This document shows, one piece after another, positions 3,468 through 29,636 of a DNA stretch of 64,000 bases (position 1 is its first letter; each line of letters opens with the position of its first letter). The position numbers and the translations under genes are program-made. The DNA lies in assembly GCF_003094615.1 (NCBI RefSeq), contig NZ_QDKO01000032.1:1-64000 (forward strand). The letters run 5' to 3'. The stretch comes from Caulobacter radicis (GTDB lineage: Bacteria; Pseudomonadota; Alphaproteobacteria; Caulobacterales; Caulobacteraceae). A model generated the notes under the pieces. It was not told where the DNA came from. It worked only from the letters and a program-made list of their open reading frames with translations, and did no database searches.

Positions 3468-3878
3468 CGTCGATCCTTCGCGGGTGTTCTGCGCAGCGCT
3501 GTGAAAGCGGGCCGTCTTTTCGCGCTCGTCTCGGGGGAGGGAGCGCTCGCGGTCCGTCTGGGCGTGTAGCTACCGGGGTTGGCCGTGCATTTCCAACCTT
3601 ACGCAGCGTCCAGGGCCCATTTTTTGCGATTCTGCGGCCTTGGCGCTGCGGTCGGGCGGCGTGTGGACGACCTGCGGTCGAGCGCTGGTAAGTAATAAAA
3701 GACTTATATACGCTCAATCGGCGGGCGCGGGGCGCCGCTTGGCTGGGCGAAGCGGCCGGGTGACGGCGCCGGAAAGTCGGCGACGCTGGACAGCCGGCGC
3801 GGGCGGTTCCAGCCTTCGGGGGAAGGCGAAAGAGCGTATGATGACCACCACACCGCAGGGCGCGAGGAAGCAAGAGCG
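3468..3878. promoter_or_regulatory. Divergent maeB/uraH intergenic region
   Basis: A 411-base gap between maeB (-) and uraH (+). The only clear structure is an AT-rich island in GC-rich surroundings at 3686-3712. It contains the dyad TAAGT-N8-ACTTA (3689-3706) and an overlapping TATATA (3705-3710) that could be the -10 box of the purine operon. No gene was recognised in the rest. The stretch just before uraH reads through without a stop in one frame but has no recognisable protein. Confidence 0.5.
3689..3706. promoter_or_regulatory. Candidate purine operator TAAGT-N8-ACTTA (site 1)
   Basis: The 18-bp dyad TAAGTAATAAAAGACTTA lies 173 bp before the uraH start and touches a candidate -10 TATATA. 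Its 16-base core matches the hpxX/formamidase site (16277-16292) at 13 of 16 positions, and its five-base arms are the same as at the TBDR site (14216-14233). A binding protein is inferred, not known. Confidence 0.6.
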
Positions 3879-4226
3879 ATGAGCGGCCTGACGACCCATA
3901 TCCTCGACACCGCCGCCGGCCGCCCGGCCGCAGGGGTGGCGGTGCGCGTCTTGCGCCGGATCGAAGGGCCGCCGGTGCTGCTGCTGGCGACAACCACCGA
4001 TGCCGACGGCCGTGCGCGGCTGGTCGAGGGCGAGGCCCTGGAGGTCGGCGGCTATCGCCTGGAATTCGAGGTCGCCGCCTATTTCGCCGCCAGCGGGGCC
4101 AAGGTCTCGGACCCGCCGTTCCTCGACGTGGTGACCATCGACTTTTCCGTGGCCGACGCGGGCCAGCACCACCACGTGCCGCTGCTGATGTCGCCGTTCG
4201 GCTATTCCACCTATCGAGGCAGCTGA
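3879..4226 (+). CDS. uraH: 5-hydroxyisourate hydrolase
   Basis: A transthyretin-like enzyme of 115 residues that hydrolyses 5-hydroxyisourate, the product of urate oxidation, to OHCU. It shows the N-terminal signature LTTHILDTAAGRPA and ends in the diagnostic C-terminal tetrapeptide YRGS; the catalytic His of THILD and the HHH-VPLLMSPFGYSTYRGS region are present. The length fits the family (110-120). No signal peptide is visible, so it is cytoplasmic. It is the first gene of an apparent operon; xdhA starts one base after its stop. No uricase or OHCU decarboxylase gene is visible in the window. Confidence 0.95.
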   Translation: MSGLTTHILDTAAGRPAAGVAVRVLRRIEGPPVLLLATTTDADGRARLVEGEALEVGGYRLEFEVAAYFAASGAKVSDPPFLDVVTIDFSVADAGQHHHVPLLMSPFGYSTYRGS

Positions 4227-4227
4227 G

Positions 4228-5706
4228 ATGGGCGGGACCATCCGTTTTCTGCTGGACGGCGAGGTGCGGGAGGCGGCGGGTGTCGATCCGACGACCACGC
4301 TGCTGGAGCACCTGCGCGGACCGCTGCGGCGGACCGGGACCAAGGAAGGCTGCGCCGAGGGCGACTGCGGCTCGTGCAGCGTACTGGTGGGCGAACTGAC
4401 CACCGGCGACGACCTGGATCCGGTGAACTGGCGGGCCGTCAACGCCTGCATCCAGCTGCTGCCGATGCTGGACGGCAAGGCGGTGATGACCGTCGAGAGC
4501 CTGGCGACCCAGACCGTGGCGGGATGCGCGGGCAGACCGCATCCCGTGCAGCAGGCGATGATCGACAAGCACGGCTCGCAATGCGGCTTCTGCACGCCGG
4601 GCATCGTCATGTCGCTGTACGGCCGGGCCGTCGGCGCCTGCGGGGCGGGGGCGCCGGTCGAGGACGTGCTGGCGGGCAACCTCTGCCGCTGCACCGGCTA
4701 TGGGCCGATCCTGGACGCCGCCCGCGAGGTGGTGCGCGAGCCCGCGCCGGACGTGGCCGCGCCGCTGAAGGCGATCCAGCGCCAGGCCATGCTGACCCTG
4801 GCCCACGAGGATCCGGTGCGCGGCGTCACCCGCCGCTGGCTGGCGCCGCGCAGCCTGGCCGAGCTGGCCGCCGCCGCCGAGGCCAATCCCGACGCGGCCT
4901 TCGTGGCCGGGGCCACGGACGTCGGCCTGTGGGTCACCAAGCTGAGAAAGCCGCCGCAGACCCTGATCGACATCGGCCGCGTGCCGGAACTGAAGACCAT
5001 CGGCCGGGTGGGCGATGCTTTGCGGATCGGCGCGGGCGTGCGCTATGTCGAGGCCATCGAGACCCTGAGCGCCCGCTATCCGGGCCTGTCCGACATGATG
5101 CGGCGGCTGGGTTCGACCCAGGTGCGCAACAGCGGCACGATCGGCGGCAACATCGCCAACGGCTCGCCGATCGGCGACATGCCCCCGGCCCTGATCGCGC
5201 TGGGCGCGCGGCTGGTGCTGCGCCGGGGCGAGCAGGTCCGCGAAATCCCGCTGGAGGACTTCTTCATCGCCTACGGCAAGCAGGACCGCCAGCCGGGCGA
5301 GTTCGTCGAGGCGGTGATCGTGCCGCGCGGTCCGGCGGGCCAGATCTTCAAGGTCTACAAGCTGTCCAAGCGCTTCGACCAGGACATCTCGGCCGTCTGC
5401 GCCGCCTTCGCCGTCACCGTGGTCGACGGGGTGGTGATCGAGGCGCGCGTGGCGTTCGGCGGCATGGCCGGCACCCCCAAGCGGGCCGACGCCTGCGAGG
5501 CGGCGCTGATCGGTTCGCCCTGGACGCGCGAGAGCGTCGAGGCGGCGGCCGCCAGGCTGGACGAGGACTATACGCCGCTGTCGGACATGCGGGCCTCGGC
5601 CGCCTATCGCGCCACGACGGCGCGCAACCTGCTGCTCCGCGCCTTCATCGAAAGCGCTGAGCCCGGCGTGGCGACCAGCGTGCTGGCGGAGGCGGCCCAT
5701 GGCTGA
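4228..5706 (+). CDS. xdhA: Xanthine dehydrogenase small subunit (2Fe-2S/FAD)
   Basis: A 492-residue subunit of the molybdenum enzyme that oxidises hypoxanthine and xanthine to urate. The N-terminal ferredoxin domain has its cysteines in CAEGDCGSCSV (about residues 36-46). A second 2Fe-2S domain has QCGFCTPGIV and NLCRCTGY (about 115-165). From about residue 200 follows the FAD-binding domain, with FVAGATDVGL and GGNIANGSPIGD, and then the CO dehydrogenase flavoprotein C-terminal domain. Length and order are those of bacterial XdhA. It starts 2 bases after uraH and overlaps xdhB by 8 bases, so translation is probably coupled. Confidence 0.96.
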   Translation: MGGTIRFLLDGEVREAAGVDPTTTLLEHLRGPLRRTGTKEGCAEGDCGSCSVLVGELTTGDDLDPVNWRAVNACIQLLPMLDGKAVMTVESLATQTVAGCAGRPHPVQQAMIDKHGSQCGFCTPGIVMSLYGRAVGACGAGAPVEDVLAGNLCRCTGYGPILDAAREVVREPAPDVAAPLKAIQRQAMLTLAHEDPVRGVTRRWLAPRSLAELAAAAEANPDAAFVAGATDVGLWVTKLRKPPQTLIDIGRVPELKTIGRVGDALRIGAGVRYVEAIETLSARYPGLSDMMRRLGSTQVRNSGTIGGNIANGSPIGDMPPALIALGARLVLRRGEQVREIPLEDFFIAYGKQDRQPGEFVEAVIVPRGPAGQIFKVYKLSKRFDQDISAVCAAFAVTVVDGVVIEARVAFGGMAGTPKRADACEAALIGSPWTRESVEAAAARLDEDYTPLSDMRASAAYRATTARNLLLRAFIESAEPGVATSVLAEAAHG

Positions 5707-8029
5707 CTCAGGCGCTTCGGTCAAAGTCACTCCGTTCCAGGGCGTGCACGCCTCGGTTCCGCACGACAGCGCCCTGCGCCACGTGACGGGCACGGCGATC
5801 TATGTCGACGACCTGCCCGAGCCGGCCGGCATGCTGCACGTGCACCTGGGCATGAGCACCCGGGCCCATGCGCGGATCGTGTCGATGGACCTGTCGGCCG
5901 TGCGCGCCTCGCCCGGCGTGGTGCGGGTGCTGACCGCCGATGACATTCCCGGCGAGAACGACGTCAGCCCCGTGATCCACGACGACCGGCTGTTCGCGAC
6001 GGGCGAGGTCTATTGCGTGGGCCAGAGCCTGTTCGCGGTGGCCGCCACCTCGATCGCCGCGGCCCGCGCCGCCGCGGCCAAGGCCGTGGTCGCATACGAG
6101 GACCTGCCGGCGGCGATCACCATCGAACAGGCCCAGGCGCTGGACCTGAGGATTGAGGCCAGCCAGCGCATGGCGCGCGGCGATGCGGCCGCCGCGCTGG
6201 AGGCCGCGCCCAACCGTATCCAGGGCAAGTTCGCGATCGGCGGCCAGGACCACTTCTATCTGGAGGGGCAGGCCTCGCTGGCCACGCCACGCGAGGAGGG
6301 CGACGTCCACGTCTGGTGCTCCACCCAGCATCCGACCGAGGTGCAGCACCTGATCGCCCGCGTGCTGGGCCGGCCCGACCACGCCGTGACGGTGGAGGTG
6401 CGCCGCATGGGCGGCGGCTTCGGCGGCAAGGAGACCCAGGCCTCGCTGTTCGCGGCGGCCGCCGCCCTGGTCGCGGTCAAGACCGGCCGTCCGGCCAAGT
6501 GCCGCCCGGATCGCGACGAGGACATGGTCATGACCGGCAAGCGGCATGACTTCGAGGTCGGCTACGACGTCGGCTTCGACGATCAGGGGCGGCTGGAAGG
6601 GATCCGGCTGGAGCTGGCCTCGCGCTGCGGGGCGACGACGGATCTGTCGCCGGCCATCAACGACCGGGCGATGTTCCACGCCGACAACGCCTACTACCTG
6701 CCGGCGGTCGAGATCGTCTCGCACCGCTGGCGCACCCACACCGTCTCCAATACCGCCTTCCGGGGCTTTGGCGGTCCGCAGGGCATGGCGGCGATCGAAC
6801 GGGTGATGGATGCGGTGGCGCAGGCGGCCGGGCTCGACCCGCTGGAGGTGCGCCGCCGCAACCTCTATGGCGGCAGCCATAACCTGACGCCCTACTACCA
6901 GGTGGTGGAAGACAACGTCGCGCCGCAGCTGATCGAGGAACTGGCCAGGTCCTGCGACTACGAGGCCCGCCAGAAGGCGGTGGACGCCTTCAACGCGGCC
7001 AATCCGATCCTCAAGAAGGGCCTGGCCCTGACGCCGGTGAAGTTCGGGGTGTCGTTCACGACCACGCACCTGAACCAGGCCGGCGCGCTGATCCACATCT
7101 ATGCCGACGGTTCGATCATGCTGAACCACGGCGGCGCCGAGATGGGGCAGGGGCTCTATATCAAGGTCGCCCAGGTGGCGGCGGAGGCGTTCCAGGTTCC
7201 GCTCGACCGCGTGAAGATCACCTCGACCACCACCGACAAGGTGCCCAACACCTCGGCCACGGCCGCCTCGTCGGGGGCCGACCTCAACGGCATGGCGGTG
7301 CTGGACGCGGCGGGCAAGTTGAAGGGGCGCCTGACGGCCTTCGCCGCCGAGAAGTGGGGCGTGGATCCCTCGCAGGTGGCCTTCACGCCCGAGGGGGTGA
7401 AGATCGGCGGCGAGACGGTGAGCTTCCCGGACTTCTGCAGGCAGGCCTATCTGGCGCGAATCTCGCTGTCGGCCACCGGCTTCTACGCCACGCCCAAGAT
7501 CGCCTACGACCGCAAGACCCATCGCGGACGGCCGTTCTACTATTTCGCCTATGGCGCGGCCTGCAGCGAGGTGGTCATCGACACCCTGACCGGCGAGACC
7601 AAGGTGCTGCGCGCCGACATCCTGCACGACGTGGGCCGCTCGCTGAACCCGGCCATCGACCTTGGCCAGGTCGAGGGCGGCTTCATCCAGGGCATGGGCT
7701 GGCTGACGACGGAAGAACTGGTCTACGACGCCAAGGGCGTGCTGAAGACCCACGCCCCCTCGACCTACAAGATCCCGACGGCGGGCGACCGGCCGCGCGT
7801 GCTGAACGTCAAGCTGTGGGAGCCCGGCCGCAACGCCGAGCCGACCGTCCACCGCTCCAAGGCCGTGGGCGAGCCGCCGCTGATGCTGGCGATCTCGGTG
7901 TTCAGCGCCATCACCCGGGCGGTGGCGTCGGTGGGGGATCATCGGGTGATGCCGAACCTCGACGCGCCGGCGACGCCGGAGGCGGTGCTGATGGCGGTGG
8001 AAGACGTGCGGAGGCGGGCTGGTGGGTGA
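5699..8029 (+). CDS. xdhB: Xanthine dehydrogenase large subunit (molybdopterin-binding)
   Basis: A 776-residue catalytic subunit that binds the molybdenum cofactor. Visible signatures are the N-terminal aldehyde oxidase/xanthine dehydrogenase domain beginning HDSALRHVTGTAIYVDD, the cofactor loops GGGFGGKETQ (~235) and FRGFGGPQG (~355), and the C-terminal KAVGEPPLML with the catalytic Glu (~720). The length matches XdhB of purine catabolism rather than CO dehydrogenase. It pairs with the overlapping xdhA. A long palindromic repeat separates it from xdhC, so downstream expression may drop there. Confidence 0.96.
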   Translation: MADSGASVKVTPFQGVHASVPHDSALRHVTGTAIYVDDLPEPAGMLHVHLGMSTRAHARIVSMDLSAVRASPGVVRVLTADDIPGENDVSPVIHDDRLFATGEVYCVGQSLFAVAATSIAAARAAAAKAVVAYEDLPAAITIEQAQALDLRIEASQRMARGDAAAALEAAPNRIQGKFAIGGQDHFYLEGQASLATPREEGDVHVWCSTQHPTEVQHLIARVLGRPDHAVTVEVRRMGGGFGGKETQASLFAAAAALVAVKTGRPAKCRPDRDEDMVMTGKRHDFEVGYDVGFDDQGRLEGIRLELASRCGATTDLSPAINDRAMFHADNAYYLPAVEIVSHRWRTHTVSNTAFRGFGGPQGMAAIERVMDAVAQAAGLDPLEVRRRNLYGGSHNLTPYYQVVEDNVAPQLIEELARSCDYEARQKAVDAFNAANPILKKGLALTPVKFGVSFTTTHLNQAGALIHIYADGSIMLNHGGAEMGQGLYIKVAQVAAEAFQVPLDRVKITSTTTDKVPNTSATAASSGADLNGMAVLDAAGKLKGRLTAFAAEKWGVDPSQVAFTPEGVKIGGETVSFPDFCRQAYLARISLSATGFYATPKIAYDRKTHRGRPFYYFAYGAACSEVVIDTLTGETKVLRADILHDVGRSLNPAIDLGQVEGGFIQGMGWLTTEELVYDAKGVLKTHAPSTYKIPTAGDRPRVLNVKLWEPGRNAEPTVHRSKAVGEPPLMLAISVFSAITRAVASVGDHRVMPNLDAPATPEAVLMAVEDVRRRAGG

Positions 8030-8049
8030 GGTCGCTTTCGCTTCTTCAA

Positions 8050-8183
8050 ACCTCTCCCAAGGGGAGAGGGAGGGGCCCGCCGCGCAGCGGTGGGAGGGTG
8101 AGGGGGTAAACCGCTCGCCGTCGAAACCCCTCACCCTCCCACGCCTGACGGCGTGGGCCCCTCCCTCTCCCTGTGGGAGAGGT
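8050..8183. repeat. Long palindromic intergenic repeat, family A
   Basis: The left arm (8050-8106, starting ACCTCTCCCAAGGGGAGAGG) and right arm (8127-8183, ending TGTGGGAGAGGT) are largely complementary over about 57 bases, with a 20-base centre. The same family occurs at 17464-17610. It lies inside the purine operon, between xdhB and xdhC, and its right end supplies the purine-rich stretch GGGAGAGG in front of the xdhC start. Confidence 0.8.
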
Positions 8184-8187
8184 TGAA

Positions 8188-9213
8188 TTGTTGGCCACCC
8201 ACAAGAACTGGGCCCGCGCGGCCCTGTCGCGGCTCGACGCCGACGACCATGCCGCCCTGGTCACAGTGCTCGCCACCGAAGGCTCGGCGCCGCGCGAGGC
8301 GGGGACCAAGATGGTGGTCTGGGAGGGCGGCCAGTCGGGCACGATCGGCGGCGGCAATCTGGAGCACCAGGCGACCAGCCAGGCGCGGCGGATGCTGACC
8401 GGCTCGCAGGCGGCCTTCGCGATCCAGGACTATCCGCTGGGCCCGCTGCTGGCCCAGTGCTGCGGCGGCCGGGTGCGGCTGATGATCGAGCGGGTCGAGG
8501 CCGCCAGCCGCGACTGGCTGACCGAGGCCGCGCGGCGGATGGACGCCGACCAGCCGTTCGAGCTGCGCACCCGTTTCGACCCGGGCCTCTTGACCAAGAC
8601 CATCGCCCCGATCGCGGCCCTGGACGCCGATCCGCCGGCCGTCCGCCTGGGCGGGGCGCCGGCCGCCGCGCGTGGCGCGCGCCCGGACCTCGGCGATGAA
8701 CTGGTCGAGCGCAGCGAGGCGCCCCGCCGGCCGCTGCTGCTGTTCGGCGCCGGCCATGTGGGCCAGGCGATCGCCCGGGCCTTCGCGCCGCTGCCGTTCA
8801 AGCTGTTCTGGTACGACAGCCGGCCCGAGGCGGCGGAGATTCCCGGCGTCGTCGTGCGCGAGCCGGCCGAGCTGGCCGCCCTGGCGATGGGCGCGACGCC
8901 GCAGGCTTACGGCCTGGTCCTGACCCACGACCATGCTCTGGACTACGCCCTGGCCTCGGCCGGGCTGGCCGGCGGCGGCTTTTCCTATCTCGGCCTGATC
9001 GGGTCGAAGACCAAGCGGGCGCGGTTCATGCATCGGCTGCGCGACGACGGCTTTTCCGAATTGGCGCTGAACCGCCTGACCTGCCCGATCGGCCTGCCGG
9101 GGCTGAAGAGCAAGGCGCCCGAGGTGATCGCCGTCTCGGTGGCCGCCGACCTCTTGATGCGGCTGGAAGCCGCCCAGGCCAGTAACGACGAGGGGTTTCG
9201 TGCAAGCGTATAG
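8188..9213 (+). CDS. xdhC: Xanthine dehydrogenase accessory protein XdhC
   Basis: XdhC binds and delivers the sulfurated molybdenum cofactor to XdhB; it is not part of the mature enzyme. The N-terminal XdhC/CoxI domain shows VLATEGSAPREAGTKMVV and GTIGGGNLEHQA, and the C-terminal Rossmann domain shows LLLFGAGHVGQAIARAF and GLIGSKTKRARF. It is about 341 residues, normal for the family. The start is uncertain. TTG at 8188 is chosen because GGGAGAGG ends 5 bases upstream; GTG at 8173 lies inside the repeat and would add five residues. The 3' end overlaps guaD by 14 bases. Confidence 0.93.
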   Translation: MLATHKNWARAALSRLDADDHAALVTVLATEGSAPREAGTKMVVWEGGQSGTIGGGNLEHQATSQARRMLTGSQAAFAIQDYPLGPLLAQCCGGRVRLMIERVEAASRDWLTEAARRMDADQPFELRTRFDPGLLTKTIAPIAALDADPPAVRLGGAPAAARGARPDLGDELVERSEAPRRPLLLFGAGHVGQAIARAFAPLPFKLFWYDSRPEAAEIPGVVVREPAELAALAMGATPQAYGLVLTHDHALDYALASAGLAGGGFSYLGLIGSKTKRARFMHRLRDDGFSELALNRLTCPIGLPGLKSKAPEVIAVSVAADLLMRLEAAQASNDEGFRASV

Positions 9214-10483
9214 GGCGTCGATCCTCCACCTGACCGGGGATCCGACGGAGAACGGGAAGGCCGTGGCCTTCCACGAGGACGGCCTGCTGGTCGTCGACGA
9301 CGGACGGGTGGTCGCGTGCGGCGACCACGCGGCGTTGGCGGCCGACCATGCCGATGTTCCGGTCGAGGACCTGACCGGCCACTGGATCACGCCGGGCTTC
9401 ATCGACACCCACATCCACTTCCCGCAGGTCGACATCATCGCCGCCCATGGCGCGCAGCTGCTCGACTGGCTGGAGCAGCACACCTTCCCGGCCGAGGCGG
9501 CCTTCGCCGATCCTGTCCACGCCCGCGAGACGGCGAGCTTCTTCGTCGACGAACTGCTGCGCAACGGCACCACTACGGCCCTGGTGTTCGGCTCGGTGCA
9601 CAAGGGATCGGTCGACGCCCTGTTCGCCGAGGCGCTGTCGCGCGACATGCGGCTGATCGCCGGCAAGGCGCTGATGGACCGCAACGCCCCGCCGGGCCTG
9701 ACCGACACGGTCGAGGGGGCGCGGGCCGACATGCGGGCGCTGATCGCCGACTGGCACGGCAAGGGACGGCTGGGCTACGCGGTCACGCCGCGCTTCGCCA
9801 TCAGCTGCACCGACGCTCAGCTGGAGATGGCCGGGCAGGTGCTGGCGGAAAATCCCGGCGTCTGGATGCAGACCCACCTGTCGGAGAACCCGCGCGAGAT
9901 CGTCGAGACCGCCGAGTTGTTTCCCGGCGCGAGCGATTACCTCGACGTCTACGAACGGTTCGGCCTGGTGCAGAAGCGTTCGGTGTTCGCTCACTGCGTC
10001 CATTTGCAGGGCGAGGCGTTCCAGCGGCTGGCGGCCAAGGACGCGGCGGTGTCGTTCTGCCCGACCTCGAACCTGTTCCTGGGCTCGGGCCTCTTCCCGC
10101 TGCCGACCGCCTGCCAGCACGGGGTGAAGGTAGGCATCGGCACCGATGTCGGGGCCGGCACGACCTTCTCGATCCTCCACACCCTGGGCGAGGCCTACAA
10201 GGTGGGCCAGCTGCGCGGCCAGGCGCTGGATCCGTTCCACGCGCTGTACCTGGCCACGCTGGGTGGGGCGCGGGCGCTGGATCTCGACGACCGCATCGGC
10301 AACCTGGCGCCCGGCAAGGAGGCCGACTTCCTGGTGCTGGACCTGGCCGCGACGCCGCTGTTGGAGCGCCGGCTGAAGGCGGCGAAGGGGCTGGAGGACA
10401 GGCTGTTCGCGCTGACCGTGCTGGGCGACGACCGGGTGGTGGCGCGGACGTACTTGGCGGGCGTGGAGCGGTGGCGGCGGTGA
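9200..10483 (+). CDS. guaD: Guanine deaminase
   Basis: A 427-residue amidohydrolase that converts guanine to xanthine, feeding XdhAB. It shows the zinc motif FIDTHIHFPQ (~residue 70), the active-site segments GTTTALVFGSVH, MQTHLSENPREI and FAHCVHL, and the metal Asp in GIGTDVGAGTTFS (~315). Length and motifs match bacterial GuaD rather than cytosine deaminase or AtzA-type hydrolases. It starts with GTG, overlapping the end of xdhC by 14 bases, which indicates coupled translation as the last gene of the operon. Two palindromic repeats follow and probably close the transcript. Confidence 0.95.
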   Translation: MQAYRASILHLTGDPTENGKAVAFHEDGLLVVDDGRVVACGDHAALAADHADVPVEDLTGHWITPGFIDTHIHFPQVDIIAAHGAQLLDWLEQHTFPAEAAFADPVHARETASFFVDELLRNGTTTALVFGSVHKGSVDALFAEALSRDMRLIAGKALMDRNAPPGLTDTVEGARADMRALIADWHGKGRLGYAVTPRFAISCTDAQLEMAGQVLAENPGVWMQTHLSENPREIVETAELFPGASDYLDVYERFGLVQKRSVFAHCVHLQGEAFQRLAAKDAAVSFCPTSNLFLGSGLFPLPTACQHGVKVGIGTDVGAGTTFSILHTLGEAYKVGQLRGQALDPFHALYLATLGGARALDLDDRIGNLAPGKEADFLVLDLAATPLLERRLKAAKGLEDRLFALTVLGDDRVVARTYLAGVERWRR

Positions 10484-10486
10484 GGC

Positions 10487-10598
10487 CATGCGTCCTTCGA
10501 GGCCCGCTCGCGCGGGCGCCTCACGATGAGGATGCAGGCTCGAGAATGTCCTCATCCTGAGGTGCGAGGCGAAGCCCAGCCTCGAAGGACGCAGGATG
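10487..10598. repeat. Palindromic intergenic repeat, family C
   Basis: The left arm starts CATGCGTCCTTCGAGG and the right arm ends CCTCGAAGGACGCAGGATG, with inner CCTCA..TGAGG motifs. A close relative lies at 39525-39629 and a more distant one at 26305-26382. It is located between convergent guaD and the nucleoside hydrolase. Confidence 0.8.
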
Positions 10599-10611
10599 TT
10601 TCAGTCTCAAG

Positions 10612-10746
10612 GAACCTCCCCCCCCTGGGGGAGGTGTCGCCGAAGGCGACGGTGGGGGGACGTTGTCAACTTCCGCGGACTTGGCCGAGCTCGCCAAGAA
10701 CTCCCCCCCGACCGCTGCGCGGTCGCCTCCCCCAGAGGGGGAGGTT
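10612..10746. repeat. Palindromic intergenic repeat, family B
   Basis: Arms AACCTCCCCCCCCTGGGGGAGGT and the complementary GCCTCCCCCAGAGGGGGAGGTT flank a centre that contains ACTTGGCC. The same type occurs at 18653-18788, 36871-37002 and 38116-38241. It sits directly next to the family C repeat, so this convergent gap holds two different elements in tandem. Confidence 0.8.
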
Positions 10747-10752
10747 CTTTTC

Positions 10753-11721
10753 TTACGACCCCACCACCCCGTTCATCGTCCGCGCATAGAGCGCCAGCAG
10801 GCGTTCGGCGTCCACGGCGATGGCGGCGCTGTGGATCGGCTGATCGTCCCAGGCCGAGGGGCCGAAGAGTTCGCCTTCGACCTTCTGCAGGGTCTGGCCC
10901 AGCGCGATGCCTTCGGTGACCACGCGGACCGAGCCGCGGCGGACTTCGAACAGGGTCTCGTCGATGACATAGGCCACGGCGGCGGCGTCGTGGACGCAGC
11001 AGCCGACGATGCCGTCGCGGCCGCCGTAGAAGGCCGCATAGGGCTTGGAGATGGCGTTGAGGAACGCACCCGCCGGACCGGCCGAGGCTTCCAGGGCCTC
11101 CATGAAGTCCGGCGTCATGATCACCTGGGTGGTGACGTCCAGGCCGATGACGGCGACGTGCCAGGGGGCGGTGAAGACGCGGTCGGCCGCTTCCGGGTCG
11201 TTCCAGATGTTGGCTTCGGCCACCGGCGTGACGTTGCCCGGCTTGCCGGCGACGGCGAAGGCGCCGCCCATGATCACCACGCCCTTGAGCAGGGTCGCCA
11301 CTTCCGGATCGGCTTCCAGCGCCAGGGCCAGGTTGGTCAGCGGACCGACGGCCACCAGGGTGATTTCGCCGGGATTGGCGCGGGCCAGGTCGATGATCGC
11401 CTGGTGGGCCGGCTTGGCTTCCGGCTCGGCGGCGACCAGGCCGGTCAGCTCGACGTCGCCCAGGCCGTTCTCGCCGTGCACGAAGGTGGGCGAGGGGTTG
11501 CGCGGGCGGACGAGCGGCTTGTCCGTGCCCTTGTAGATCGGGGCGGTCAGGCCGAAGCGCTGCTTCAGATAGAGGGCGTTGCGGGTGGTGGTGTCGATGT
11601 CGGCGTTGCCGAACACGGTCGTCACGGCCACCAGGTCGAGCGCCGGGCTGGCCTCGATGAACAGCAGGGCCATGGCGTCGTCGATGCCGGGATCGGTGTC
11701 GAAGATGATCTTGGTCGTCAT
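10753..11721 (-). CDS. Inosine-uridine-type nucleoside hydrolase
   Basis: A 322-residue enzyme that cleaves the N-glycosidic bond of nucleosides to base and ribose. The N-terminal calcium-binding signature IIFDTDPGIDDAMAL is complete. Also present are VAVGPLTNLALAL and EANIWNDPEAADRVF, and the C-terminal active-site region CCVHDAAAVAYVID. The length is typical (310-330). No signal peptide is seen, so it acts in the cytoplasm. Its context points to purine nucleosides: it lies downstream of a TBDR and hpx-like genes and faces guaD/xdh. The start is the ATG preceding TTKIIFD; a longer open frame further upstream overlaps the TBDR in another frame and is not real. Confidence 0.94.
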   Translation of the reverse strand: MTTKIIFDTDPGIDDAMALLFIEASPALDLVAVTTVFGNADIDTTTRNALYLKQRFGLTAPIYKGTDKPLVRPRNPSPTFVHGENGLGDVELTGLVAAEPEAKPAHQAIIDLARANPGEITLVAVGPLTNLALALEADPEVATLLKGVVIMGGAFAVAGKPGNVTPVAEANIWNDPEAADRVFTAPWHVAVIGLDVTTQVIMTPDFMEALEASAGPAGAFLNAISKPYAAFYGGRDGIVGCCVHDAAAVAYVIDETLFEVRRGSVRVVTEGIALGQTLQKVEGELFGPSAWDDQPIHSAAIAVDAERLLALYARTMNGVVGS

Positions 11722-11806
11722 CGGTCTTCTTGTCTGCGAGCCCGGCGGAAGGCCGGGAAAGCCGACGACCTTAGCCGCCCGACGCGGCGCGGGCATGTCA
11801 AAACGA

Positions 11807-11843
11807 CAACGGCCCGGGCGTTTTTCAACGCCCGGGCCGCCGT
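11807..11843 (-). terminator. Hairpin after the TBDR gene
   Basis: GGCCCGGGCG (11811-11820) is perfectly complementary to CGCCCGGGCC (11829-11838), with an 8-base loop. On the - strand it follows the TBDR stop by about 25 bases and is followed by GTTGTCGTTTT. It probably ends or weakens transcription before the nucleoside hydrolase gene. Confidence 0.65.
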
Positions 11844-11864
11844 TTGCTTCAAGCTTTCGTTCGC

Positions 11865-14045
11865 TTAGCGGCGGGCGCTCAGCGAGATGCCGACCACGCG
11901 CGGCTCGTTGACGAAGCCGGTCAGGTTGTTGAAGTCGATGCCGCCGCGCAGGTTCACCTCGTTGGTGATGTTGCGGGCGAACACGGCCACTTCGTACGCG
12001 CCGTCGGTGCGGGCGTAGCCCAGCTTCAGGCCGCCTTCGAAGGTGTCCTTGCTGTTGAACTCCTTGCTCTCGTAGAGGAAGAGGTTCGTGTAGCCCTGAC
12101 GGAACCAGTCGGTTTCGGCGAAGAGTTCGCCGTTCGCGCCGACCGGCACGTTGTAGCGGGCGCCGAAGTTCAGAATGTATTCCGGCGCGTTCGGGAACGG
12201 GTTGCCATTGACCAGGGCCTGACCGGCGGTGTTCAGCGGATCGGTCACGGTGCACTGGGCGCAGACGGCCACGGCCAGGCCCGAGTCCTTGATCTTGGTG
12301 TGGCTGTAGCTGTAGCCGGCGGTGACCAGCAGGTTCGAGGTCACCTTCCACTCGCCGTCGAGTTCGACGCCGTAGGCCTCGCCCTTCTTGGCGTTGATCA
12401 GGCGGTTGGAGTTGCTGCCGCCGCCGACCGCGCTGAACTGCGGGTCGTCGATGGTGTAGGTGAACACCGCGCCGTTCAGGCGGACGCGACGTTCGAACAG
12501 CTCGCTTTTGACGCCGGCTTCCCACGACAGGATGGTTTCCGACTGCGCGACCGAGGCCGGGCTGCCGAAGGCGATGTCGCGGCCCTGGATCGACGGGCCG
12601 CGGAAGCCGCGGGCCACCTTGCCGTAGACGCTGACGTCGTCGTTGACGGCGTAGAAGGCCGACAGGTCCCAGCTGGCCTGGCTGTCGGAGACCGACACCG
12701 GGGCCGAGGCGCCGAACGGCGAGGACAGGACTTCCATGTCCTTGTCGTCGTCGGTCCAGCGCACGCCGGCGGTGACCTTCAGGGCGTCGGTGACCTGATA
12801 GGTCCCTTGGCCGAACACGGCCCACGAGGTGTTCTTGTGCTCCAGGGTGCTGGGGGCGACGAAGAACGGGTTGGTCGAGACGGTGAAGGCCGACTTGAAG
12901 TAGTAGGCGCCGACCTGCCAGGCCAGCTTGCCGTCGGTGTCGCTGGCCAGGCGGATTTCCTGGGTGACCTGGTCGAGGTCGCCGATGGAGTCCTGGGTGT
13001 CGGAGTCGAACGGGATGAAGCCCGGGCCGACGCCGGCCACGCCGCCGTCGATGTCGCCGCGGCTGCGGCCCTTGGCGGTTTCGTAGGCGCTGATCGAGGT
13101 CAGCTTCACGCCGCCGAAGTCGTGGTCGATCTTCAGCGAGACGCCGGTCGAGTCATACTCCTGCGGGTTGTTGGCGCCGCCGTTGTAGCTGACCTTGTCG
13201 CGGTCGAAGTTCGAATTGATCTTGTTGCTGCCGGCCGTGAGGATGTTGGCGCGGAAGACCGCCGCGGTGCCGTCCAGCGAACGGGTGTGGGCGATGGCCA
13301 GGATCGAGGTGTCCTCGGTCGGGGTGGCCAGGATCTGCAGGCGGGCGGCCTTTTCGTCATAGCCGCCGAGCGCGTCCTTCACGCCGGTGAAGGCGTTGTC
13401 GATGTAGTCGTCGCGGTGCTGGTACAGGGCCGAGGCGCGGACGGCCAGCTTGCCCGGGACGATGGCGCCGCCGACGCCGCCTTCGAAGGTGGCCGAGCCG
13501 TACGAGCCGTAGGTGGCCGCGCCGTTGGCGCGGAAGTCTTCGCTGGGCTTTACCGTGTCGAACTTGACGATGCCGGCGGTGGTGTTGCGGCCAAACAGCG
13601 TGCCTTGCGGGCCGCGCAGGACTTCGACCTGCTCGACGTCATAGACCGGCGAGCTCTTGAGCACGACGTTCTCGAGGACGACGTCGTCCATGATCACCGA
13701 CACCGGCTGCGAGGCGGCCAGGTCGAAGTCGGCGTTGCCCAGGCCCCGGATGTAGAAGCGCGGGGCGGCGCGGCCGTTGGAGCTTTCGATGTAGAGGCCG
13801 GGGACGCGGCTCGACAGGGCCAGCACGTCCTCGCCGGCGGCGAAGATCGAGGCCAGCTTCTCGCCCGAGACGGCGGCGACGGAGACCGGCACGTCCTGGA
13901 TGTTTTCCGAGCGCTTCTGTGCGGTGACGATCACGTCGTCGAGGGCGACGGCCGCGTCCTGGGCGAAGGCCGGGGCCGCGACGGCGGCGGCCAGCAGGAG
14001 AGCGCCGAACGCGGCGCCCGAGCGCAGCTTGGCTTGATTGGTCAT
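11865..14045 (-). CDS. TonB-dependent receptor of the purine locus
   Basis: A 726-residue outer-membrane receptor. It has a signal peptide (MTNQAKLRSGAAFGALLLAA...APAFA), a TonB-box/plug beginning LDDVIVTAQKRSENIQDVPVSV, the plug element RGLGNADFD, PVYDVEQVEVLRGPQGTLFGRNTTAGIVK (in pieces), and a beta-barrel ending in the terminal aromatic-type strand VVGISLSARR. Size and plug are those of the IroN/FecA-like small-molecule TBDRs common in Caulobacter. The start at 14045 follows AAGGGGATTTCGAC. A longer reading adds residues with no signal peptide. It sits between hpxZ and the nucleoside hydrolase, all on the - strand, and has a purine-type dyad upstream, so uptake of purines, nucleosides or nucleic-acid fragments is inferred. 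The ligand is not shown by sequence. Confidence 0.92.
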   Translation of the reverse strand: MTNQAKLRSGAAFGALLLAAAVAAPAFAQDAAVALDDVIVTAQKRSENIQDVPVSVAAVSGEKLASIFAAGEDVLALSSRVPGLYIESSNGRAAPRFYIRGLGNADFDLAASQPVSVIMDDVVLENVVLKSSPVYDVEQVEVLRGPQGTLFGRNTTAGIVKFDTVKPSEDFRANGAATYGSYGSATFEGGVGGAIVPGKLAVRASALYQHRDDYIDNAFTGVKDALGGYDEKAARLQILATPTEDTSILAIAHTRSLDGTAAVFRANILTAGSNKINSNFDRDKVSYNGGANNPQEYDSTGVSLKIDHDFGGVKLTSISAYETAKGRSRGDIDGGVAGVGPGFIPFDSDTQDSIGDLDQVTQEIRLASDTDGKLAWQVGAYYFKSAFTVSTNPFFVAPSTLEHKNTSWAVFGQGTYQVTDALKVTAGVRWTDDDKDMEVLSSPFGASAPVSVSDSQASWDLSAFYAVNDDVSVYGKVARGFRGPSIQGRDIAFGSPASVAQSETILSWEAGVKSELFERRVRLNGAVFTYTIDDPQFSAVGGGSNSNRLINAKKGEAYGVELDGEWKVTSNLLVTAGYSYSHTKIKDSGLAVAVCAQCTVTDPLNTAGQALVNGNPFPNAPEYILNFGARYNVPVGANGELFAETDWFRQGYTNLFLYESKEFNSKDTFEGGLKLGYARTDGAYEVAVFARNITNEVNLRGGIDFNNLTGFVNEPRVVGISLSARR

Positions 14046-14215
14046 GTCGAAATCCCCTTCGAACACCGGTGGAGGAGCCGGTTGCGGGGTGCAATGCACA
14101 ATGGCGTCGCCGAAATCAAAAGGCTTGATGACGACTCGGTATCGACTCCGTGAAGTTTGTTCTGGGGCTGTCACTATTTGACCACGCTGCGACAAGGGCG
14201 CCCAAAACTAGGTCA

Positions 14216-14233
14216 TAAGTCAGGACATACTTA
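14216..14233. promoter_or_regulatory. Candidate purine operator TAAGT-N8-ACTTA (site 2)
   Basis: The dyad TAAGTCAGGACATACTTA lies 171 bp upstream of the TBDR ATG, in the gap after hpxZ. Its arms equal those of the uraH site exactly. A second dyad, AGGACA-N11-TGTCCT (14222-14244), overlaps it. Both lie in an AT-rich island. Confidence 0.55.
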
Positions 14234-14263
14234 CTTATTGTCCTTGGTCGGAACGTCTGGCGC

Positions 14264-14665
14264 TTACTGTGCAAGGCGTTGGTCGGCGCCGCCCTGAAGC
14301 AGCGAGACGTGCGCGGACACGATTTTCCAGCCGTTTTCGGTGCGCAGCCAGGTCTGGCTCTGGCGGCCGGGCTGTTTTGCCCCGGTTCTGAGGAATTCGA
14401 CGTTGGCGATCGCGAAATCGCGCCCAAAAGTGGTGATTTCGGTCCGCAGGCGCTCGCGCAGCGGCGAGCCGCCGGTCCGTCCGATTCGAAAGGCGGCGAT
14501 CTCTTCGAAGCCGTAGAGGTTCTCGGCGACGCCGTAGCGGACGGTTTGCGGCGCGTCACGGAAGAAGCCGTCCAGCGCCTCGACGTCGTTGGTCATCAGG
14601 GCGGTCTCGTAGGCGTCGACGGCGGCGGTGACTTCGGCCAGCGCCTCGGGGTCGTTGATGATCAT
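14264..14665 (-). CDS. hpxZ: HpxZ/AtzH-like protein (NTF2 fold, DUF3225)
   Basis: A 133-residue NTF2/SnoaL-fold protein of the HpxZ/AtzH family. It begins with the characteristic MIINDPEALAEVTAAVDAYETAL (in part), has RYGVAENLYGFEEIAAFR, and ends in WKIVSAHVSLL. In Klebsiella, hpxZ belongs to hpxWXYZ for oxalurate breakdown; in the atrazine pathway the relative AtzH hydrolyses 1,3-dicarboxyurea. It overlaps hpxY by ATGA. Here its place beside xanthine dehydrogenase and a nucleoside hydrolase favours the purine (oxalurate/ureide) role; the precise substrate is inferred. Confidence 0.85.
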   Translation of the reverse strand: MIINDPEALAEVTAAVDAYETALMTNDVEALDGFFRDAPQTVRYGVAENLYGFEEIAAFRIGRTGGSPLRERLRTEITTFGRDFAIANVEFLRTGAKQPGRQSQTWLRTENGWKIVSAHVSLLQGGADQRLAQ

Positions 14666-16050
14666 GCCTTGAACTCCGCAGGGCGATGGGCGGCGATCAC
14701 CCCGGCGCGCTCCAGGCGCAGGGCGGCGGCGAAGGCCAGGTCCTCGCGCCAGGTCGGCGCGATCAGCTGCACGCCGACAGGCGGCTTGCCGGGGCGGTTC
14801 ACGGGCGCGGCGATCACCGGCAGGCCGATACAGCTGATCGGCTGGGTGTAGGCGCCCAGCGTCTTGCGCACCGAGACCTGCGCGCCGGCCAGTTCCATGG
14901 TCGCCTGGCCGATCGGCGGGGCCGGGCAGGGCGCGACGGGGGCGAGCAGCAGGTCGAAGTCTTCGAACAGCCTGCGGGCCGCGTCGCGGAAGACGGGGCG
15001 ATAGCGGCGGGCGGCGTCGGCGACTTCGCCCGGCAGCAGGGCGCCGGCCAGCAGGCGGTCGCGAACGGCCGGATCGTAGTCGAGGGCGCGGGCGGCCAGA
15101 TCATCGAAGTGCAGGTGGCCGCCCTCCAAGGCGCTCATGGCGAAGGCGGCGGCGCGGGCGGCCTGGGCGCCGGGCAGTTCGACGTCGCGGCGGGCCTGCA
15201 GGGCGTCGGCGACGATCTCCAGCGCCTCGACCACCTCGGGGAAGGCGCCTTGCTGGAACCAGCCGCCTAGCACGCCGACGCGCAAGGGACGATCGGCCAG
15301 GGCGTCGAGGCGCCCCGACAGCGGATCGGCGACCGGCGGCGACAGCTCGTCGCGCGGGTCGGGCCCCTGCAGGGCGTCGTAGGCGACGGCGAGGTCGGCG
15401 GCCGTGCGCGCGAACGGGCCGATATGGTCCAGGCTATGGACGAAGGGGAAGGTCCCGGCCCGCGACAGCCTGCCCAGGGTGGGCTTCATGCCGAACACGC
15501 CGCACAGGCCGGCGGGAATGCGGATCGAGCCGTTGGTGTCCGAGCCCAGGGTCAGGGGAACGATGCCGCCGGAGACGGCGGCGGCCGATCCGCCCGACGA
15601 GCCGCCGGCGATGCGGGCCGGGTCGTGCGGATTGCGGGTGGGGCCGTCGTGGGCGTTCTCGGTGACGAAGCCGTAGGCGAACTCGTCCATGTTCAGCGCC
15701 CCGACCAGCACCGCGCCGGCCGCCTTCAGCCGGGCGACGGCGGTGGCGTCGGCGACAGCGGGGCTCGCGTCGCGGCGGATCTTGCTGCCGGCCAGGGTGA
15801 CGTGGCCGGCCACGTCGAACAGGTTCTTGACCGCGAAGGGCACGCCGGCCAGCGGGCCCAGGTCGACGCCGGCGGCGAAGGCGGCGTCCACGGCGTCGGC
15901 CTGGGCCAGGGCCTCGGCCTCGAACACGGCGGTGAAGGCGTTGAACGGTTCGGCCCGGGCGGCGGCGAGCGCGCGCTGCGCGATCTGGCGGGCGGTGGCC
16001 TCGCCTTCGCGCTGGGCCCGGCCCAGGTCCTGGATGGTGTCGAAGCTCAT
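14662..16050 (-). CDS. hpxY: AtzE/HpxY-family amidase
   Basis: A 462-residue amidase-signature enzyme. The catalytic Lys is in VPFAVKNLFDVAG, and the Ser-cisSer-Lys triad is completed by the Gly/Ser-rich block RIAGGSSGGSAAAV and GSDTNGSIRIPA. The family (AtzE, HpxY, GatA-like) cleaves amide or urea-type bonds and needs a small GatC-like partner. That partner, hpxX, is the gene just upstream with an ATGA overlap (start 16050). The next gene, hpxZ, also overlaps by ATGA, so the three are translated together. Substrate in this context: oxalurate or a related ureide is likely, 1-carboxybiuret unlikely since no s-triazine genes are present. Confidence 0.88.
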   Translation of the reverse strand: MSFDTIQDLGRAQREGEATARQIAQRALAAARAEPFNAFTAVFEAEALAQADAVDAAFAAGVDLGPLAGVPFAVKNLFDVAGHVTLAGSKIRRDASPAVADATAVARLKAAGAVLVGALNMDEFAYGFVTENAHDGPTRNPHDPARIAGGSSGGSAAAVSGGIVPLTLGSDTNGSIRIPAGLCGVFGMKPTLGRLSRAGTFPFVHSLDHIGPFARTAADLAVAYDALQGPDPRDELSPPVADPLSGRLDALADRPLRVGVLGGWFQQGAFPEVVEALEIVADALQARRDVELPGAQAARAAAFAMSALEGGHLHFDDLAARALDYDPAVRDRLLAGALLPGEVADAARRYRPVFRDAARRLFEDFDLLLAPVAPCPAPPIGQATMELAGAQVSVRKTLGAYTQPISCIGLPVIAAPVNRPGKPPVGVQLIAPTWREDLAFAAALRLERAGVIAAHRPAEFKA

Positions 16051-16256
16051 GGCTCGAACGCCTCGACCGGAGAGGCCGGATCGGTCAGGCCCGCGAACAG
16101 CGCGGTCTGGTCGCGCAGCAGGGCGAGGTTCTCGGCGACGCCGGCGCGGCAGCTTTCGGGAACGGGCAGGCCAAGCTCGGCGCTGCGGCGATCCAGATAG
16201 GCGGCGACCTTGGCGTCGGTGAGGTTTTGGAAGGCCGACAGATCGCCGCCCGACAT
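16047..16256 (-). CDS. hpxX: AtzG/HpxX-like small subunit (DUF4089)
   Basis: A 69-residue all-helical protein. The pattern AYLDRRSAELGLPVPESCRAGVAENLALL matches DUF4089/AtzG, a GatC-like clamp that wraps the AtzE/HpxY amidase. Its place directly before and overlapping hpxY (ATGA) supports the call. It is the first gene of the - strand unit hpxX-hpxY-hpxZ. A dyad of the purine type lies only 20 bases upstream of its ATG. Confidence 0.8.
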   Translation of the reverse strand: MSGGDLSAFQNLTDAKVAAYLDRRSAELGLPVPESCRAGVAENLALLRDQTALFAGLTDPASPVEAFEP

Positions 16257-16275
16257 GGGAAGTCACTCACGCTAG

Positions 16276-16293
16276 GAAGTAATTGAATACTTC
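16276..16293. promoter_or_regulatory. Candidate purine operator GAAGT-N8-ACTTC (site 3)
   Basis: The dyad GAAGTAATTGAATACTTC has perfect 6-base arms (GAAGTA/TACTTC). It lies in the divergent gap between hpxX (-) and the formamidase (+). The core AAGTAATTGAATACTT matches the uraH site at 13 of 16 positions. Nothing else stands out in the 248-base gap. Confidence 0.6.
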
Positions 16294-16504
16294 ATAGCCA
16301 GCTGACGATAACGCCGCCAGCACGGGTTTTTCAAGCGCTTAAGCTGAGCCGATCGCCTGCCGAATGCGCGACGCTGGTGCAGTTGGCGCCCAGGCGGGAG
16401 GCAGGTTTCGCAAAGCAGGGCGCGAGCGGAGGCCTGCGCTTCGTTCCAGCGGCGGCGCGGCCGGAGACTGGAGGCCGTTTCAAGCCTTCGGTCCCCGCTT
16501 CGCC

Positions 16505-17452
16505 ATGCACCACCACCTCGCCTCCACCCCGCAAACCGTCCGCTTCGGCATCTTCGACGCGGCCTTCGATCCGGTCCTGACCGTCCAGCCGGGCGACAGC
16601 GTCACCTTCGACTGCGTGTCCGGCGGACCCGAGGTGATGCCGGGGCCGGAGTCGTGGCTGACCATCCCGCCGGCCTTGCAGGCGATCCACGACGCCAGGA
16701 TCGACCGGATCGGGCCGCACATTCTCACCGGACCCGTGGCCATCGCCGGGGCCGAGCCGGGCGACACACTGGAGGTGCGCATCGAGGCGGTGGAGCCCAA
16801 CAACGACTGGGGCTACTGCGCGGTGCGGCCGCTGGCCGGCACGATCCCGGAGGACTTCCCCGACCGCTATGTCAGCCACATCGCCGTCGACAAGGCGCGC
16901 GGCGTCTGCAAGCCGGAGTGGGGGCCGCAGCTGCCGCTGCGCCCGTTCTTCGGCACCATGGGCGTGGCCCCGCCGGCCAGGTATGGGCGCCTGTCCAGCC
17001 GCGAGCCGCGCGAGCACGGCGGCAACATGGACAATAAGGAGCTGGGCGCCGGCGCGACCCTGTTCCTGCCGGTCTGGGTTCCGGGCGCCAACTTCTCGGC
17101 CGGCGACGGCCACGGCCGCCAGGGCGACGGCGAGGTCTGCGTCAACGCCCTGGAGATGGGCCTGACCGGGACCTTCGGCTTCATCCTGCACAAGGCGGCC
17201 GACATCGGCGTCGCGACCTGGCCGCGGGCCGAGACGCCGACCCACTACATCGTCATGGGTTTCAACGAGGACCTGGACCTGGCCATGAAGCAGGCCCTGC
17301 GCGGCATGATCGACTTCATCTGCGCCCGCTCGGCCCTGACCCGCGTGCAGGCCTACCAGTTCTGCTCGCTGGCGGTGGACTTCCGGGTGACCCAGACGGT
17401 GAACGGCGAGAAGGGCGTGCACGGCATGCTGGAGAAGGGCGTGCTGTTCTGA
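16505..17452 (+). CDS. Acetamidase/formamidase family protein
   Basis: A 315-residue hydrolase of the FmdA/AmdA family, which releases ammonia from formamide or short amides. It shows CVSGGPEVMPGP, RIGPHILTGPVAIAGAEPGDTLEV, the metal/active-site block REHGGNMDNKEL and AGDGHGRQGDGEVCV, all standard for the family. No signal peptide is seen. The ATG at 16505 is chosen by similarity of the N-terminus (start just before the conserved beta-strand region); there is no good ribosome site, and an in-frame ATG at 16364 would add 47 unrelated-looking residues. It is divergent from hpxX and shares the dyad at 16276-16293, so it may handle an amide by-product of purine breakdown or general nitrogen scavenging. 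Confidence 0.9.
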   Translation: MHHHLASTPQTVRFGIFDAAFDPVLTVQPGDSVTFDCVSGGPEVMPGPESWLTIPPALQAIHDARIDRIGPHILTGPVAIAGAEPGDTLEVRIEAVEPNNDWGYCAVRPLAGTIPEDFPDRYVSHIAVDKARGVCKPEWGPQLPLRPFFGTMGVAPPARYGRLSSREPREHGGNMDNKELGAGATLFLPVWVPGANFSAGDGHGRQGDGEVCVNALEMGLTGTFGFILHKAADIGVATWPRAETPTHYIVMGFNEDLDLAMKQALRGMIDFICARSALTRVQAYQFCSLAVDFRVTQTVNGEKGVHGMLEKGVLF

Positions 17453-17678: not shown

Positions 17679-18239
17679 TCAAGCCTCCCGGGTCATGGCG
17701 ATGAGGCGGGTCTGCAAGGCGTCGGGAGACTCGGTCCCAGGATCGCCGTCGTGCAGCACGCGGGCGAACCAGTAGCCGTCGGCGGCCAGGCGCACGACGT
17801 GCAGGCGCGGGTCGGAATCGGTGTCGGCGTGGCGCACGAGGCGCGCGTCGATCCAGGTGCGCCAGCGGCGGCGCAGGGCCGGGTCGGTGACCATCGAGAT
17901 GGTCAGGGCCTGGCCGCTCAGCGCCTGGTCGCAGCACTCGAAGGTCGAGACCACATAGGCGCGGGTGAACGATCCGTGGCCGCCCTCGTCCTGCGCCATC
18001 AGGCGGTCCAGGGCCTCTTCCATCTGCTCGAGCATGAAGTCGAAGACGGCGTCGATCAGGGCCTGCTTGTTCCCGAAGTGATGGAACAGCCCGCCCTTGG
18101 TGACGCCGGCGCGGTCGGCCACCGCCTGGACGGTGATGCCGCCCAGGCCCTGCTCCTCGGCCAGGGCGACGGCGGCGTCCAGCAGGGCGCGGCGCACCTG
18201 CTCGGGCTGCTTGGGGCGGTTGTAGGCGGTGGTGTTCAT
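17679..18239 (-). CDS. TetR-family transcriptional regulator
   Basis: A 186-residue repressor-type protein. The N-terminal helix-turn-helix spans about residues 14-60, with ALLDAAVALAEEQGLGGITVQAVADRAGVTKGGLFHHFGNKQALIDAVF (in part), the classic TetR_N pattern. The C-terminal ligand domain is not recognisable by eye. It overlaps the upstream SMR transporter gene by ATGA, so the two form an operon, and it most likely controls that efflux gene in response to a cationic or lipophilic drug. Confidence 0.9.
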   Translation of the reverse strand: MNTTAYNRPKQPEQVRRALLDAAVALAEEQGLGGITVQAVADRAGVTKGGLFHHFGNKQALIDAVFDFMLEQMEEALDRLMAQDEGGHGSFTRAYVVSTFECCDQALSGQALTISMVTDPALRRRWRTWIDARLVRHADTDSDPRLHVVRLAADGYWFARVLHDGDPGTESPDALQTRLIAMTREA

Positions 18240-18583
18240 CCGTGCCCCAGGGTGCGCGAGAACAGTTGGGCGACGACCACGCCGCTGACGATCAGGCCGA
18301 TGCCGATCATCGCCGGCAGGTCGAGCATCTGGCGGAAGAGCACCGCGCCGATGATCGCGGTCAGCACGATCCCGACCCCGCTCCAGATGGCGTAGGCGAC
18401 GGCCAGCGGCATGTGCTTGAGCGCGATCGACAGCAGGAAGAAGGCCAGGGCGTAGAGGCCGGCGGTGGCCAGGCTGGGCAGCAGTTTCGTGAACTGCTCG
18501 GACTTCTGCAGGAAGGTGGTGCCGGCCACCTCGGCGGCGATGGCGCCGGCGAGGAAGGCGTAGGCGGAAGCGGGGACGGACAC
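18236..18583 (-). CDS. Small multidrug resistance (SMR/EmrE-like) efflux protein
   Basis: A 115-residue inner-membrane protein with four predicted helices. The essential Glu is in helix 1 (GAIAAEVAGTTFLQKS), and SIALKHMPLAVAYAIWSGVGIV and a GIGLIVSGVV helix 4 follow, as in EmrE/QacE proton antiporters. The pattern AYAIWSG places it with the quaternary-ammonium exporters more than with guanidinium exporters of the Gdx type, although that split is not certain by eye. It overlaps the following TetR gene by 4 bases. Confidence 0.9.
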   Translation of the reverse strand: MSVPASAYAFLAGAIAAEVAGTTFLQKSEQFTKLLPSLATAGLYALAFFLLSIALKHMPLAVAYAIWSGVGIVLTAIIGAVLFRQMLDLPAMIGIGLIVSGVVVAQLFSRTLGHG

Positions 18584-25347: not shown

Positions 25348-25529
25348 GGGGGATCTCCTTGGGGCTCGAAAGCAGGTGATCTCCCTTGTCGTCACACGCC
25401 GGCGCCGCCGCGAGCGGCGGGATTTGCAATCTTCGTGAGCTATCCGTGCAGCTTGTCCGGAGGCGGGCTTGCCGTGCCCGGAGCGGCGCCGCATTGTGCG
25501 GAAATGTGCGGATTCGTGAGGCCTTGCCG
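25348..25529. promoter_or_regulatory. Divergent control region between the sortase system and its XRE regulator
   Basis: Contains the direct repeat TGTGCGGA at 25495-25502 and 25505-25512. The repeats are exactly ten bases apart, so they lie on the same face of the helix, 18 bases before the regulator's ATG. This fits autoregulation by the XRE protein, which is an inference. Confidence 0.4.
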
Positions 25530-29430: not shown

Positions 29431-29636
29431 GATACGCTTTCCCGCCCCAGAAGATCTTATGTCCGCACGGCTTTGAACGCCGTTTCAAGCGGGTCGTAAA
29501 TTGACTGCGCTGTCCGCATTTGTCACGTTTCCCGCAGGCGAAAAATCGCCGAAGCGCCTTTTCTGCCGAAAAAGTCGTTTCAGAACAAAAGGATGAGTGG
29601 CGTGTTGAGTGGCGTTACGGGGTTATGTCAACGCCC

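Follow-up and report, generated by a model that had tools for sequence, protein, structure and literature searches.

The purine island and its dyads

The window, i.e. the whole stretch of 64,000 bases that was analysed, corresponds to bases 1-64000 of contig C32 in a genome (G000) of 5,570,445 bases and 47 contigs. It carries an island of genes for purine breakdown, listed here with model scores and their cut-offs.

3879..4226, plus strand: uraH, hydroxyisourate hydrolase (TIGR02962, 120.5 bits, cut-off 87.45)
4228..5706, plus strand: xdhA, xanthine dehydrogenase small subunit (TIGR02963, 603.6 bits, cut-off 467)
5699..8029, plus strand: xdhB, xanthine dehydrogenase large subunit (TIGR02965, 1299.4 bits, cut-off 849.5)
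8173..9213, plus strand: xdhC, XDH accessory protein (TIGR02964, 292.3 bits, cut-off 161.6)
9200..10483, plus strand: guaD, guanine deaminase (TIGR02967, 584.8 bits, cut-off 375.4)
10753..11721, minus strand: nucleoside hydrolase, 3′ of the TonB-dependent receptor (PF01156, 295.8 bits in the longer frame 10753-12825; start codon chosen by us)
11865..14045, minus strand: TonB-dependent receptor (TBDR) behind site S2 (TIGR01783, 126.2 bits, below the cut-off of 223.5; start codon chosen by us)
14264..14665, minus strand: hpxZ (NF033625, 165.4 bits, cut-off 135)
14662..16050, minus strand: atzE, AtzE-type amidohydrolase (TIGR02715, 649.8 bits, cut-off 425.75; start codon chosen by us)
16047..16256, minus strand: putative hpxX, so named in the earlier note, an open frame kept here in many island loci
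16505..17452, plus strand: fmdA, formamidase (PF03069, 120.9 bits, cut-off 27, in frame 16364-17452; start codon chosen by us)

Beside the formamidase gene, a TetR gene (TetR_C_28), which only some relatives share, overlaps a gene for an SMR multidrug transporter (17679-18583). Further along the window, a sortase-domain gene lies beside a VIT/VWA-domain gene (22556-25494), and the frame at 26402-29488 has a full tryptophan halogenase domain. On the other side, the contigs of several relatives break off 5 to 6 kb before xdhB, as the window's own contig does (1-500); a long repeat immediately beyond the window may be the cause.

Three dyads of the form AAGT-N8-ACTT had been placed by the earlier note in front of parts of this island, and all three are present and exact: AAGTAATAAAAGACTT at 3690-3705 (S1), AAGTCAGGACATACTT at 14217-14232 (S2) and AAGTAATTGAATACTT at 16277-16292 (S3). 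A letter count also bears out that the first and the third share 13 of 16 core positions. The sites, in the longer form used below, are as follows.

3690..3709, plus strand: site S1, AAGTAATAAAAGACTTATAT, in the maeB-uraH interval
14217..14236, minus strand: site S2, AAGTAAGTATGTCCTGACTT, in the hpxZ-TBDR interval; a perfect AAGTMA-N8-TKACTT
16277..16296, plus strand: site S3, AAGTAATTGAATACTTCATA, in the hpxX-fmdA interval

The pattern WAGT-N8-ACTW occurs 3 times in the window against 0.21 expected, and 1 of 100 shuffles reached this number. With one mismatch allowed in AAGT-N8-ACTT, the count is unremarkable (6 in the window for 3.24 expected; 12 of 100 shuffles reached 6). Over the whole genome (5.57 Mb), the exact dyad is found at 16 places and a reversed control pattern at 31, meaning that the dyad is not enriched as such. 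Among the 16 places, 3 lie within 12.6 kb and a fourth stands in front of another purine operon, so that 4 of 16 are upstream of purine operons and a bias to purine genes is present. What is unusual about the dyad is therefore its clustering near purine operons, not its genome-wide frequency. At 3 of the 16 places, near base 1501 of loci L001, L003 and L011, the dyad is part of GGAAGTCA...ACTTCCCCC, and the sequence 3′ of it is similar in all three; these look like copies of a single element, not operators.

Conservation of the sites, and a fourth one before allC

For the comparison with Caulobacter relatives, 75 genus genomes were searched for XdhB, of which 57 gave a hit, and 52 loci around xdhB were taken and mapped (those of G030, G035, G041 and G051 were not taken, and G000 is the window itself). 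Leaving aside 9 loci of a distant group (8 with uraH) and 2 that stop short of uraH (L122 and L164), 41 remained for S1. S2 was counted only where both the TBDR gene and hpxZ were found (n=15), and S3 only where both atzE and fmdA were (n=35). AAGTAA is kept at S1 in 41/41 Caulobacter island loci, at S2 in 15/15 and at S3 in 35/35, and the sites are thus kept together with the genes. The exact AAGT-N8-ACTT is present in 18/41, 6/15 and 23/35 of these loci, respectively: the shared spacing of 8 nucleotides between AAGT and ACTT, on which the earlier note had relied, is not itself conserved. In the distant loci of the genus that have uraH (XdhB 68-71% identical), neither AAGTAA nor the exact dyad was found in the interval (8/8).

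A fourth site, S4, was obtained in a blind search of the genome at C32:138108-138127, 121.8 kb away. It precedes a gene for allantoate amidohydrolase (NF006775, 621 bits, cut-off 479), and together with S2 it accounts for the two places of the genome where the 20-mer AAGTMA-N8-TKACTT is perfect. The genes 3′ of S4 (locus L185), all on one strand, are allC, an aminotransferase gene, puuE, uraD, puuD and tetR, for allantoate amidohydrolase, aminotransferase, allantoinase PuuE, OHCU decarboxylase, urate oxidase (Urate_ox_N) and a TetR protein. The aminotransferase, whose best models are far below their cut-offs, is presumably PucG-like. Taken together, the predicted products of the island and of the allC row cover the way from guanine and hypoxanthine to allantoate and beyond. 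S4 was looked for in 41 loci, of which 8 are without allC and 2 contain only its 3′ part; the other 31 extend to the 5′ end of allC, and all of them keep the AAGTAA of S4.

S1, S3 and S4 are each the most conserved 20-base stretch of their interval, with values of 0.906, 0.933 and 0.919 against interval means of 0.60, 0.67 and 0.56, respectively. S2 is outside the top four stretches of its interval, in an alignment of 15 rather similar loci. Two other, strongly conserved features of that hpxZ-TBDR interval, the palindrome GTGCAATGCAC and TGTCACTATTTGACCACGC (14089-14099 and 14169-14187), are each inside a top-four 20-base stretch in the 15 loci.

From these alignments, the dyads are best described as conserved regulatory sites, AAGT-N8-ACTT being one register of a longer inverted repeat, AAGTMA-N8-TKACTT, whose halves appear unequal, with a strong AAGTAA and a looser partner. 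In a matrix over all site classes AAGTAA is invariant and the right half degenerate; this invariance arises partly by construction, because the motif strings used for collection contain AAGTAA, an effect from which the counts per site given above are free. Matrices built without S1, without S2 or without S4 recover the site left out; the one built without S3 fails to recover S3 above background.

As tools for finding further members of the regulon, the 20-mer with up to 2 mismatches (53 places, 88 for the reversed control, i.e. no enrichment) and the looser pattern AAGTAAKNNNNNNMTK (13 places, 6 in the control) were both set aside. Three sites upstream of TBDR genes, C10:35146, C13:3111 and C19:46573, recur in near relatives; around those of C10 and C19 the flanking DNA is conserved as well, and conservation of the site says little there. 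A further one, C43:45329 (L188:7330, AAGTAAGCAGAAACTTCATT), is followed after some 90 bases by a flavin reductase-like gene and then by a gene for methylmalonate-semialdehyde dehydrogenase; it also recurs in near relatives, and in 5 of them it stands out from diverged flanks. All four stay candidates.

A TetR gene that accompanies the sites

The row headed by the inverted repeat S4 ends on the gene that we consider the most likely regulator.

G000:C32:131861-132520, on the strand of the allC row: candidate TetR-family regulator, last gene of that row (PF00440 + PF17938)

Pfam gives TetR domains only for its product, TetR_N (PF00440, 43.6 bits, cut-off 24) and the C-terminal TetR_C_29 (PF17938, 108.6 bits, cut-off 26.2), and no MarR-type domain. 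Just 3′ of it in G000 is a gene for a ParE-type toxin (L185:12849-13139).

At 79% identity or more, this TetR is present in 46 of the 75 genus genomes, and exactly these 46 also have XdhB at 79% or above. By coordinates, 28 of the 46 have it no more than 18 kb from xdhB; for 9 drafts that do not belong to the window's subclade, tetR and xdhB are on separate contigs. In G000 and G003 a single contig carries both S3 and S4, some 122 kb from each other, against 7.6 kb in G009, which makes a distant regulator a feature of this subclade; in its other 7 members, tetR and xdhB are on different contigs. The earlier note had proposed a distant regulator, which agrees with the position of tetR in this subclade (∼120 kb), but in many relatives tetR is found inside the cluster.

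Presence of the perfect 20-mer follows that of the gene: it was found in 45 of the 46 genomes with TetR versus 1 of the 29 without. The genome that has TetR and no perfect 20-mer is G041, an incomplete draft. The Fisher value for this co-occurrence is 2.6e-18 with genomes treated as independent, and the contrast is inflated by shared descent. Genus-wide, perfect 20-mers occur at 74 places, against 12 for the reversed control, and at least 7 of the 74 are outside the purine cluster by coordinates.

Homologues were also collected beyond the genus. In a family sample of 299 genomes, those at E 1e-40 are found in 47 genomes of four genera. Two other genera provide homologues of 62-67% identity, in G105 (two copies) and G125. 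Their neighbours are an amidase gene, a formamidase gene or a complete purine cluster that includes two Xan_ur_permease genes, and the intergenic TAAGTAAG sites there score 19 to 31 bits; in G180 (40-41%), a search for sites gave none. The two G105 copies (65-67%, L276 and L277) each adjoin an AtzE-like amidase gene, with 2OG-Fe(II) oxygenase, creatininase or isochorismatase-type genes near. In a class sample, homologues of 35-45% identity are present in 36 other genomes (37/385 including G000). These are mostly without purine neighbours: among 29 loci, one has an adjoining fmdA (52%, L296) and three have amidases 28-37% identical to AtzE. In a set of 80 XdhB loci that served to look beyond Caulobacter, the one clear TetR homologue was that of the Caulobacter locus L019 (86%); L065 gave a weak match.

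The 46 genomes may be one clade, and TetR and the sites could co-occur simply as passengers of the cluster. On a rival reading, the sites are operators of a purine regulon whose regulator is encoded elsewhere (a MarR, GntR or LysR protein, or a second TetR), and the TetR of the allC row controls something else. G000 does have other regulators nearby, but the gene that accompanies the sites is that of the allC row (45/46 versus 1/29), and we consider this reading unlikely. The TetR gene at 17679-18239, which is close by even though the earlier note had seen no adjacent regulator gene, overlaps the SMR gene and was detected in just 4 of the 43 island loci, although several of these loci are cut off before the place where it would be. 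The GntR gene at L185:4076-4828 is ExuR-like (below cut-off) and lies beside enolase-superfamily and GH67 genes. RutR has no match in G000 at E 1e-20; among 7 genomes tested, 2 had a match, none over the curated cut-off.

It is a good deal less probable that the sites are conserved promoter elements, AT-rich -10 or -35 boxes, and not operators. They are indeed AT-rich and upstream of operons, and in about 39 relatives S1 runs into TATATA and could be part of a -10 box. Against this, the inverted repeat is preserved in its two halves at S2 and at S4, and with two perfect copies in the genome the sequence is no general promoter. Moreover, an extra site, S3b, stands directly before the start of fmdA in 29/35 loci (the 6 without it are those of the window's subclade), which leaves too little room for an ordinary promoter and a leader. 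Finally, mere chance, with short AT-rich dyads of no common origin catching the eye in 64 kb, is hardly credible in spite of the 16 places against 31 for the exact dyad and of the 12 shuffles in 100 that reached six near-matches, given the conservation in 41, 15 and 35 loci and a fourth site found before the missing genes of the pathway.

The proposed regulon and known regulators

We conclude that the dyads are very probably operators of one purine-catabolism regulon, and that its regulator is most likely the TetR protein encoded at the end of the allC row. The earlier note had put forward a purine regulon with a distant regulator, TetR being one of the options, and this is supported by the joint conservation of sites and genes, by the fourth site and by the tetR gene that ends the allC row. 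On our best reading, TetR would be an autoregulated repressor, RutR-like without being RutR, that controls both uptake and degradation of purines.

The inverted repeat AAGTMA-N8-TKACTT would be the target of a TetR dimer. Bound at S1, the dimer would repress uraH-xdhABC-guaD, at S2 the TBDR and nucleoside hydrolase genes, at S3 hpxX-atzE-hpxZ as well as the formamidase gene, and at S4 the row from allC to tetR, its own gene included. TetR would leave the DNA once its C-terminal domain has bound a purine or one of the breakdown products, and uptake and catabolism would then be switched on together. From sequence we infer the gene rows as operons, the binding of TetR, repression rather than activation, and the effector. 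We speculate that the asymmetry of the sites, AAGTAA being strong and its partner loose, may determine how strongly each promoter is controlled.

A wider reading is possible, though on balance doubtful: TetR as the purine-sensing counterpart of RutR in Caulobacteraceae, its regulon joining TonB-dependent uptake of purines across the outer membrane to the pathway from guanine and hypoxanthine to formamide and including, in this subclade, the further TBDR genes (C10:35146, C13:3111, C19:46573) and the C43:45329 pair. Because its gene is under the same sites as the purine genes, the TBDR gains a testable substrate class, and active TonB-driven import of purines becomes, if this is true, a testable idea. 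For purine breakdown in the model genus Caulobacter, the analysis yields a candidate for the regulator gene, a consensus for the operator and a list of targets. This is a newly inferred regulon and no new mechanism; that it is undescribed rests on a search of the open-access literature, in which no paper describing this purine regulon or such a Caulobacter regulator was found.

Several repressors of other families answer to purine breakdown products, as we propose for the candidate. HucR and PecS are urate-responsive repressors of the MarR family, and AllR is a repressor of the IclR family that answers to purine breakdown products; unlike them, the candidate has TetR_N and TetR_C_29 domains. 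AllR is named as a repressor in the abstract of PMC10163214 too. Closer by description is XdhR of Streptomyces coelicolor, a TetR repressor of the xanthine dehydrogenase genes according to the portions covered of PMC6627660 and PMC7057948. In the same portions, that XdhR answers to ppGpp and serves guanosine salvage, whereas the regulon proposed here would span uptake to allantoate breakdown. The XdhR of Cupriavidus necator exerts xanthine-responsive control of purine genes (PMC7057948, portions covered), but is of LysR type and thus belongs to another protein family than TetR.

RutR is listed as a TetR-family regulator of pyrimidine catabolism in a regulon reconstruction for Proteobacteria, and no purine-catabolism regulator appears in the portions of it that were covered (PMC5343134). 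The best solved match of the candidate's family profile is 3npi, a TetR protein that its depositors call uncharacterised, and the profile aligns with RutR structures almost from end to end (4x1e, query 13-219, 68.9 bits). Like RutR, the candidate would be a TetR repressor of nucleobase breakdown. Unlike RutR, it scores 46.6 bits on the RutR model TIGR03613, for a cut-off of 368, it carries TetR_C_29, the targets found for it are purine genes, and it coexists with a separate RutR-like gene in G012 and G045.
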